In this document: piece after piece, positions 57,454 through 60,764 of the stretch
Numbering within the stretch: the stretch's first letter is position 1
Layout: each line of letters starts with the position of its first letter
Origin: Comamonas koreensis
GTDB lineage: Bacteria; Pseudomonadota; Gammaproteobacteria; Burkholderiales; Burkholderiaceae_C
Length of the DNA: 64,000 nucleotides
Direction: 5' to 3'
Assembly (NCBI RefSeq): GCF_014076495.1
Contig: NZ_CP043575.1
Location: forward strand, 4,650,001-4,714,000
The notes under the pieces: generated by a model
The model's database searches: none
The model's input: only the letters and a program-made list of their open reading frames with translations
Told to the model about the DNA's origin: nothing
Program-made: the position numbers and the translations under genes

Positions 57454-60192
57454 TTATGCGAGTTTACCGTGGCAGAGCTTGTATTTCTTGCCACTGCCGC
57501 ATGGGCATGGATCATTGCGGGCCACACGCACGCCTTCAGGCAGCGCCAGCGGCTCGCTGGACTCGGCGTCGCCCGACTCGTCGGGGCCGCTGTAGGTCAC
57601 ATGGGCCGTGCGGTCGTTGCTTTGCTCCAGCTGCTCGGTCGCTTCATCGAGCTGCTCGGGCGAGCGGATCTGCACCGACATCATCACGCGGGTGACCTGG
57701 GTCTTGACCTGGTCGATCAGCTGGCTGAACAGCTCGAAAGCCTCGCGCTTGTATTCCTGCTTGGGCTGCTTTTGGGCGTAGCCGCGCAGGTGGATGCCCT
57801 GGCGCAGGTAGTCCAAGGCGGCCAGGTGGTCGCGCCAGCTGGAATCCAGGGTCTGCAGCAGCACCGCACGCATGAATTGCATGAAGTTCTCCTTGCCCGC
57901 CTGCTCCAGCTTGTCATTGAAGAGGCGTGCGCCTTCGGCAACGACCTTCTCTTCGATTTCCTCGTCGGAGATCGATTCCGCGCCATCGAGCAGCTGCTGC
58001 AGTGGCAGGTCGATGTGCCATTCCTCGCGCAGCACCTTCTCCAGACCGGCCAGATCCCACTGCTCTTCCATGGACTGCTCGGGCACATACTGGCGCACGA
58101 TATCGGCCAGCGCGCTGTCGCGCATGCCGTCGATCATCGGAGCCAGGTCGGCCGCATCCAGAATCTCGTTGCGCTGCTGGTAGATGACCTTGCGCTGGTC
58201 ATTGGCGACGTCGTCGTACTCGAGCAATTGCTTGCGCATGTCAAAGTTGCGCGCTTCCACCTTGCGCTGCGCGCTTTCGATGGAACGGGTCACAATGCCC
58301 GCTTCAATGGCTTCGCCATCGGGCATCTTCAGGCGCTCCATGATGGCCTTGACACGGTCGCCCGCGAAAATGCGCATCAGCTGGTCGTCCAGCGACAGGT
58401 AGAAACGCGAGGAGCCACGGTCACCCTGGCGGCCGGCACGGCCACGCAGCTGGTTGTCGATACGGCGCGATTCATGGCGCTCGGTCGCGATGATGCGCAG
58501 GCCGCCCAGCTCGGTCACCTTGTCGTGCTCGATCTTCCACTCAGCGCGCAAGGCTTCGACCTTGTTGCGGCGCTCCGTCTCGGACAGCGACTCGTCGGCC
58601 TCGATGGCGGAAATCTGCTTTTCGATATTGCCGCCCAGCACGATGTCGGTACCGCGGCCTGCCATGTTGGTCGCGATGGTGATGACGCCGGGGCGCCCCG
58701 CCTGGGCAATGATGTCTGCCTCGCGCTCATGCTGCTTGGCGTTGAGCACCTGGTGGGGCAGATTCTCTTTCTTCAGCATCTCGTCGATGATTTCCGAGTT
58801 CTCGATCGAGGTCGTGCCCACCAGCACGGGCTGGCCGCGCTCGTAGCACTCCCGGATATCGCTGATCGCCGCCGCATACTTCTCGGGCGTGGTCTTGTAG
58901 ACGCGGTCCAGCTGGTCATCGCGCTTGCTGGGGCGGTTGGGCGGGATCACCACGGTTTCCAGACCGTAGATTTCCTGGAACTCATAGGCCTCGGTGTCAG
59001 CAGTACCGGTCATGCCGCCCAGCTTGTTGTACAGGCGGAAATAGTTCTGGAAGGTGATCGATGCCAGGGTCTGGTTCTCGGCCTGGATTTCCACGCCTTC
59101 CTTGGCTTCAACGGCCTGGTGCAGACCTTCGCTCCAGCGGCGGCCCGACATCAGGCGGCCGGTGAACTCATCGACAATCACGACCTCGCCGCCCTGCACC
59201 ACATAGTGCTGGTCGCGGTGGTAGAGGTGCTGGGCGCGCAGTGCGGCGTACAGCTGGTGCACCAGCGTGATGTTGGCGGGATCGTAGAGCGATGCGCCTT
59301 CGGCCAGCATGCCCTTTTCAGCCAGAATGCGCTCTGCCGCTTCGTAGCCTTGCTCGGTCAGGTGGATCTGGTGGCCCTTTTCGTCGACCGTGAAGTCGCC
59401 CGGCTTGGTCACGCCCTCGCCGGTGCGGGGGTCGGCTTCGCCTTCCTGGCGCGTGAGCAGTGGCACCACTTCGCGCATCGCCAGGTAGGCGGCGGTGTGG
59501 TCTTCGGCCTGGCCGGAGATGATCAAGGGCGTGCGCGCCTCGTCGATCAGGATCGAGTCCACCTCGTCGACGATGGCGAAGTTCAGCCGGCGCTGCACGC
59601 GCTCGCTGGCATCTTGCACCATGTTGTCGCGCAGGTAGTCAAAGCCGTACTCGTTGTTCGTACCGTAGGTGATGTCGGAGTTGTAGGCGGCCTGCTTCTC
59701 ATGCTTGGGCAGCTGCGACAGGTTGATACCCACCGACAGACCCAGGAAGTTGTAGAGGCGCCCCATCCAGGTCGCATCACGCGTGGCCAGGTAGTCATTG
59801 ACCGTCACCACGTGCACACCATTGCCGCTCAGCGCGTTCAGGTACACGGGCAAGGTCCCCGTCAAGGTCTTGCCTTCGCCGGTACGCATTTCGGCAATCT
59901 TGCCGTAATGCAGGGCCATGCCGCCCAGCATCTGCACATCGAAGTGGCGCATCTTCATCACCCGCTTGGAGCCTTCACGCACCACGGCAAATGCCTCGGG
60001 CAGGATATTGTCCAGCGACTCTCCGCCAGCGATGCGGTTCTTGAACTCCTGCGTCTTCTCGCGCAATTGTTCGTCGCTGAGCTTTTCGTACTCGGGCTCC
60101 ATCGCATTGATGCGAGCGACGACCTTGCGGTATTGCTTGAGCAGGCGATCATTGCGACTGCCAAAAATTTTGGTGAAGAAATTGGTTGCCAT
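57454..60192 (-). CDS. secA: Preprotein translocase ATPase SecA
   Basis: Motor ATPase of the Sec pathway, 912 residues. Walker A is MRTGEGKT (Lys109), with the DEAD-type [10 protein letters not shown]. The helicase-like second domain has [17 protein letters not shown]. The C-terminus is the zinc/SecB-binding tail [14 protein letters not shown]. It is divergent from the dciA-like gene. No secM-like leader is present; this is normal in betaproteobacteria. Confidence 0.98.
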
Positions 60193-60330
60193 GCGAACAG
60201 AACCACACAACCAGGGAATGCACTTGCGTCCACCCCTGCCATGCGACCGGAATTCCTAGTGATTAGTGTTGTGTCAGATGGAGGCAATGACCCCGGCTTC
60301 AATACCGGGAACGACGCCTGCCGAATAAAA

Positions 60331-60354
60331 CATTCTACAACCCTGAATAGAATG
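60331..60354. promoter_or_regulatory. Inverted repeat with mirrored TAGAAT boxes between secA and dciA
   Basis: CATTCTA at 60331-60337 and TAGAATG at 60348-60354 are perfect inverted copies ten bases apart. Each contains a TAGAAT -10-like hexamer, one facing dciA and one facing secA. Neither has a good -35, so a divergent promoter or operator is only suggested. Confidence 0.35.
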
Positions 60355-60416
60355 CGTTGTGGCAGGTGCATTGCAATGTATGGCTATCGCCCCCGGTCTG
60401 CCCCTGACACCCCTAT

Positions 60417-60466
60417 CCAGCCATGACCCAGCCATGACCCAGCCATGATCCAGCCATGATCCAGCC
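60417..60466 (+). repeat. 11-bp tandem repeat with chained micro-ORFs before dciA
   Basis: Four full copies of CCAGCCATGAY plus a partial copy. Each copy carries an ATG (60423, 60434, 60445, 60456). The first three open four-codon frames, MTQP, MTQP and MIQP, each stopping at a TGA that overlaps the next ATG as ATGA. The fourth ATG opens the dciA frame. Confidence 0.85.
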
Positions 60467-60764
60467 CCAACGCCGGCATTTCGCCGTCACCGTAGAACAA
60501 GCCGCGAGCGAGGCGCCCACGTTGGCGAGCCTCGTGGCTTTGACGCGGGAGTCTTCTGCCCGCTTCAAACTGGTGGAGCCGCTGATCCCGCCAATGCTGC
60601 GCGCCTCGATCAAGCCCGGCCCGATCGACGGTGACCAGTGGTGCCTGCTGGTGGCCAACAATGCCTGCGCTGCCAAAATGAAGCAGCTGCTGCCGGCGAT
60701 GGCGGCCCATCTGCGCGTCAAAGGCTACCCGACGGCAGATATTCGCCTCAAAGTACTGCGCTGA
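60456..60764 (+). CDS. dciA: DciA-like protein (DUF721), probable replicative-helicase loader
   Basis: A 102-residue protein with the DUF721 pattern: FKLVEPLIPPMLRASIKPGPIDGDQWCLLVANNACAAKMKQLLP. DciA loads DnaB-type helicase in bacteria that lack DnaC, and dciA is often next to secA. The start ATG at 60456 is the last of four ATG codons in an 11-bp tandem repeat, and no Shine-Dalgarno sequence precedes any of them. The identification is by family pattern and location, and the protein is short for the family. Confidence 0.78.
   Translation: MIQPQRRHFAVTVEQAASEAPTLASLVALTRESSARFKLVEPLIPPMLRASIKPGPIDGDQWCLLVANNACAAKMKQLLPAMAAHLRVKGYPTADIRLKVLR

Follow-up and report, generated by a model that had tools for sequence, protein, structure and literature searches.

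Slippage-type variable-number tandem repeats, which go with short direct repeats, are a known class of sequence. Egbert and Klavins (2012) reportedly tuned ribosome binding sites by repeat number, using synthetic spacer repeats and not copies of a start codon. Where neighboring reading frames are translationally coupled, a 4-nt overlap of stop and start codons is the commonest arrangement in prokaryotes (PMC10666635). Multiple start codons have also been placed before a gene by design: in Bacillus licheniformis, the output of engineered tandem start units rose with the number of units and required their start codons, each unit carried a Shine-Dalgarno (SD) sequence, and the design worked only at 15–21 nt between SDs (PMC9723656). 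Among the literature matches listed, judged by title and the start of the abstract, this last study was the only one that looked close.

Here, we analyze an 11-bp repeat with four ATG codons at the start of a dciA-like gene of Comamonas koreensis, situated in a 64,000-nucleotide stretch of contig NZ_CP043575.1 (positions 4,650,001 to 4,714,000, henceforth termed the window). Like slippage-type variable-number repeats, the array has a one-copy relative in which short direct repeats flank the unit, and its copy number varies between close relatives, compared across species with one genome each. With the repeat-tuned ribosome binding sites, it shares a start-adjacent repeat whose number could alter translation. 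Termination-reinitiation at ATGA overlaps (PMC6728339, PMC10666635) is matched by the 4-nt stop/start overlap at each step; in known cases, however, the coupled frames are real genes and the upstream one often contains an SD, whereas the donors in the array are putative four-codon frames devoid of this frequent, though not universal, element. The tandem placement of start-codon units before a single gene recalls the engineered initiation sites, which differ from the SD-less, 11-nt natural unit in their individual SDs and 15–21 nt spacing (PMC9723656). As close relatives lack the chain, an accident of copying seems a better description of it than an inherent means of control.

The array and the gene it precedes

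Tandem Repeats Finder places the array at 60417–60466 of the plus strand (period 11, 4.5 copies, 97% matches) with a score of 86, the top value among its 40 rows for the window. ATGA was read at 60423, 60434, 60445 and 60456, all inside the array, and each of the first three ATGs begins a frame of four codons that ends in a TGA overlapping the following ATG; all four ATGs and all three linking TGAs are intact in this genome. A preliminary description of the window, made from the sequence alone, had claimed this geometry as well as the persistence of the chain upon gain or loss of a copy, and both claims were borne out. The chain of frames arises because the copied unit has 3n+2 bases, in this case 11, and holds ATGA without another in-frame stop. 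The preliminary description had missed two upstream frames, one ending on the first array ATG and listed below (60376–60426), the other running from an ATG at 60380 to a TGA at 60446–60448. The features of the region are as follows:

60348..60353 (+), possible -10 element TAGAAT for dciA, proposed from its conservation in the clade
60364..60368 (+), SD-like AGGTG, seven bases 5' of the ATG at 60376, read from the sequence
60376..60426 (+), putative upstream ORF encoding MYGYRPRSAPDTPIQP and a stop, its TGA overlapping the ATG at 60423, with an equivalent frame in relatives
60417..60466 (+), 11-bp tandem array with four ATGA, 4.5 copies, positions checked
60423..60437 (+), micro-ORF 1, MTQP and stop, TGA overlapping the ATG at 60434, from the sequence and ORF lengths
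60434..60448 (+), micro-ORF 2, MTQP and stop, TGA overlapping the ATG at 60445, on the same basis
60445..60459 (+), micro-ORF 3, MIQP and stop, TGA overlapping the ATG at 60456, on the same basis
60456..60764 (+), dciA-like gene of 102 codons, with relatives throughout the genus and profile evidence for the family

Among 200 dinucleotide shuffles of the window, none reached a score of 86 or more and none contained a four-ATG chain. As a repeat, the array exceeds chance, although a previous run of 60 shuffles had a top score of 96, so that at least one of them reached the array's 86. In a predicted fold, calculated from a guessed transcript start, the second and third ATGs are mostly paired and thus less open than the fourth, which is also more open than the first at the last base of the latter.

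Counting the genome of the window itself, 52 of 53 Comamonas genomes contain a relative of the dciA-like gene (G016 is the one without a match), as do 117 of 120 genomes of the family. The Pfam profile for DciA, PF05258, matches neither the window protein nor, in a search of the genome, anything at the locus, whereas 24 of the 35 members of the alignment match it at E values up to 5 (best 4.4e-5). A profile built from the 35 sequences retrieved a single PDB sequence, the DUF721 protein 8a3v_C, at an E value of 0.73, and the predicted structure model of the protein has a mean pLDDT of 84.7. In beta- and gammaproteobacteria, DciA is placed between secA and lpxC (PMC5109545). The divergent secA on one side of the gene is in keeping with this position; on the other side lie a tRNA and sspB, and lpxC is not adjacent. 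The identity proposed in the preliminary description is weakly supported by the family profile and left without a match for the window protein itself, and "DciA-like" is a fair, if unproven, name.

Start region across Comamonas and its family

To compare start regions, we used 52 dciA loci of the genus, 51 extracted by script and one (L080 of genome G027) by eye; the latter failed the start motif and stands outside all counts of 51, and visual reading shows a single ATG there without an array. Every one of the 51 has an ATG 2 to 7 codons upstream of a common motif. The four-ATG array is absent from each of the other loci (52 with this one), and Tandem Repeats Finder, run from -150 to +40, reports an 11-bp array across the start in three of the 51 only: the present locus (86), the genome taken as C. 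koreensis KCTC 12005 (G015; score 53, 2.7 copies) and that taken as JUb58 (G023; score 35, 1.9 copies). Both of these sister species have CTG where the extra copy would have ATG. One copy of the unit is found in G019 and in the genomes taken as B21-038 (G021) and BIGb0152 (G030), so that the six clade species carry about 4, 2, 2, 1, 1 and 1 copies around a start codon that is the same in all six. In B21-038, two copies of CCAGCC at a distance of 11 bp flank the start codon and are, as judged from their placement, a likely substrate for slippage; G019 and G030 lack this flanking pair and show no duplication. A scan of genome contigs gave six loci, all of them relatives, those with a name being Comamonas.

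These comparisons bear on the role that had been proposed for the array, namely that copy number tunes expression of the helicase loader. A conserved role of this kind was not borne out, in view of the lack of the array at every other genus locus, the CTG in the extra copy of two sister species and the lack of any extra copy in one sister. The preliminary description had also named an alignment of related loci as a check, expecting, should its idea be wrong, an unconserved repeat and homologues that start elsewhere with a ribosome site. Run across species, the alignment gave the former part, an unconserved repeat; the latter did not appear, since dciA homologues start at the equivalent place and are likewise without a ribosome site.

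The absence of an SD had itself been noted, and was confirmed: no match of 3 nt or more lies in the 20 nt upstream of the ATG at 60456, and the array contains none. Its description as strange did not hold up. A 4-nt match is absent in 50 of 51 Comamonas dciA genes and in 23 of 25 loci of other genera, the latter being those with an ATG within 60 nt among 29 loci (L090–L118) examined from the 117 matching family genomes, with at least one start (L097) that looks wrong. Among 46 greedily chosen ORFs of the window, 12 have a 4-nt SD at the first start and 21 have one at any of the starts within their first 30 codons, and the frequency at internal positions is 14.5%. Judged by these sequence comparisons, a missing SD is ordinary for dciA. 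A leaderless start would have a -10 element about 12 nt before its start codon; of the hexamers sought as signs of this, none occurs within 60 nt of the dciA start here. In five of the 51 genus loci (L085, L086, L087, L088, L089), the dciA ATG is preceded at a distance of 12 or 13 nt by a -10-like hexamer, which suggests a leaderless dciA mRNA in these species. By eye, a motif resembling CATCCGTGATAATCAAATGCA recurs in the region upstream of dciA in many of the other-genus loci (L090–L118) and may be a conserved promoter.

Upstream of the array, GGCAGGTGC is identical across all eight aligned clade genomes. The AGGTG stretch forms a predicted duplex of -9.9 kcal/mol with the 16S tail, and the ATG at 60376 that follows it is present in six of the eight genomes, missing from G017 and from G018, taken as C. 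odontotermitis. A frame that runs from an upstream ATG to a TGA overlapping the dciA ATG is open in all six clade species, with the present genome scored to the first array ATG rather than that of dciA. The next relatives, G017 and G018, both lack it. It was found within 150 nt in 8 of 31 ATGA-starting loci from the rest of the genus (31 of 45 other loci start this way and 14 do not, G017 and G018 included). Random-phase shuffles yield such a frame at 0.24–0.56 per species, a rate to be read with the shared ancestry of the clade species and with the two leader ATGs that cover two frames. Selection for the coupled frame in the clade is suggestive at most. In a metagenomic relative, P0002, the second leader ATG is in frame with dciA.

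Origin and possible function of the array

We consider it likely that the array arose by lineage-specific slippage, through which an 11-bp unit was multiplied that by chance contains the SD-less start of dciA. The starting state would have been a start codon between CCAGCC copies 11 bp apart, as shown in one-copy B21-038. Slipped replication between these copies may then have added three units in the present genome and roughly one in each of two sister species, each added unit bringing a four-codon ORF that overlaps the next ATG by virtue of the 3n+2 length and the ATGA within. Translation of DciA would begin at 60456, the last ATG and the sole one that opens the gene; the upstream ATGs would presumably be weak decoys or landing sites, tolerated because they have little net effect; any effect of the array on expression would be mild at most. 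Counting against this account are the position of the array exactly on the start codon with every ATG and linking TGA intact, the more open fourth ATG in the predicted fold, and the coupled frame in six of six clade species versus the shuffle rate given above.

In an alternative account, ribosomes would enter at the SD-bearing ORF at 60376 and step ATGA by ATGA to dciA. Such stepping is in our estimate unlikely, as is its consequence, in which ribosome loss at each step would let copy number set the DciA level. Consistent with it are the 4-nt overlap at every junction, the AGGTG seven bases upstream of the ATG at 60376 and the higher incidence of the coupled frame in the clade than among the other ATGA-starting loci of the genus. 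The array, however, has no SD, and SD removal lowered reinitiation in E. coli (PMC6728339); the extra codon is CTG rather than ATG in two sisters, the frame is missing in both next relatives and frequent in shuffles, and P0002 departs from the pattern. A broader version extends stepping to the clade: dciA, without a ribosome site of its own, would be fed by an SD-bearing leader ORF via stop-start overlap, and slippage would have stretched this junction into four rungs whose number sets the amount of helicase loader. The case for it is made because the coupled frame is open in all six clade species, and we give it a low probability. Equally improbable is that the four AUGs merely act as extra landing sites that raise local capture of 30S or 70S ribosomes, and with it dciA translation, without stepping. 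Here the analogy with engineered tandem start units (PMC9723656) is offset by the missing SD, by an 11-nt unit where 15–21 nt were needed in that system, and by the predicted pairing of the second and third ATGs. If functional, the locus would represent a naturally occurring series of minimal reinitiation steps before a replication gene, and SD-less ribosome stepping could readily be tested with the leaders of sister species, which carry one, two and four copies.

We see very little likelihood that the repeat acts at the DNA level, with 11-bp direct repeats, one helical turn each, serving as protein-binding boxes and the ATGs being incidental. Elsewhere in Comamonas, ATGA runs with 11-bp spacing look like putative PhoB boxes read backward. 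The present array, however, spans a start codon, is missing from relatives and appears to lack the A/T-rich spacers of the PhoB box consensus. As it stands, the locus mainly illustrates how slippage over an SD-less start can yield an eye-catching, probably incidental chain of ORFs.

ATGA runs elsewhere and the divergent secA leader

Three ATGAs at 11-bp spacing were matched 40 times in 27 of 53 Comamonas genomes, and the backward pattern 7 times. We considered the chain as a habit of dciA or of Comamonas gene starts and rejected this idea, the only matches at dciA, by their coordinates, being the two in this genome. In 10 of 30 loci (L038–L067), this one included, the frame that begins at the last ATG stays open for at least 80 codons or up to the locus end; the other nine are putative genes. 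Several of the loci have the look of TGAC boxes, and the 11-bp spaced ATGA boxes of L042, L051, L059, L061, L063, L046 and L052, from several Comamonas genomes, are candidate PhoB-like boxes read backward. Around position 1500 of L055 (G031), an 11-bp tandem array, ATGATGGCTCC, has GTG in its later copies, and its last ATG opens only four codons.

The intergenic region between secA and dciA holds two clade-conserved TAGAAT hexamers that face apart (ATTCTA...TAGAAT, 60330–60355). While a scan for the sigma-70 consensus found no promoter, these opposed hexamers are possible divergent promoters on the basis of their sequence. On the minus strand, a 19-codon ORF that begins with an ATG at 60333, ahead of secA, is open in all eight clade genomes. 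It was rejected as a conserved peptide: the ATG overlaps the likely secA -10, and its differences from G018 (3, 5 and 4 at codon positions 1, 2 and 3) give no sign of protein selection.

The secA 5' leader (60192–60310, minus strand) contains a sequence block that appears related, by eye, in 39 of 51 genus genomes, the 39 being those whose secA start was found by pattern. After this block, just upstream of the secA ATG, lies a stem-loop with arms at about 60245–60238 and 60211–60204. Covariation was assessed in 21 hand-chosen rows of the 39, in which 7 of the 12 pairs predicted by RNAalifold show compensatory changes, and the 8-bp helix of the hairpin is 90.4% paired with compensatory changes. 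For a ten-pair structure drawn from one row, 85.8% of cells are paired versus a shuffled mean of 72.8, and 34 cells are changed on both sides versus 11.7 in shuffles. Counting against the hairpin, the 6 pairs changed on both sides were reached by 64 of 500 shuffles, and a short second helix is only 52.2% paired. A search of Rfam at E values up to 1 returned nothing on the minus strand at the secA leader, its yield being one tRNA and, on the plus strand, three matches that fell far short of their gathering scores, and our literature search found no report on a secA RNA motif. The covariation of the ten-pair structure, 0.479, was equaled by none of 500 shuffles and exceeds that of slid versions (at most 0.289), and the hairpin is, from its sequence variation, a candidate cis-regulatory RNA of secA.
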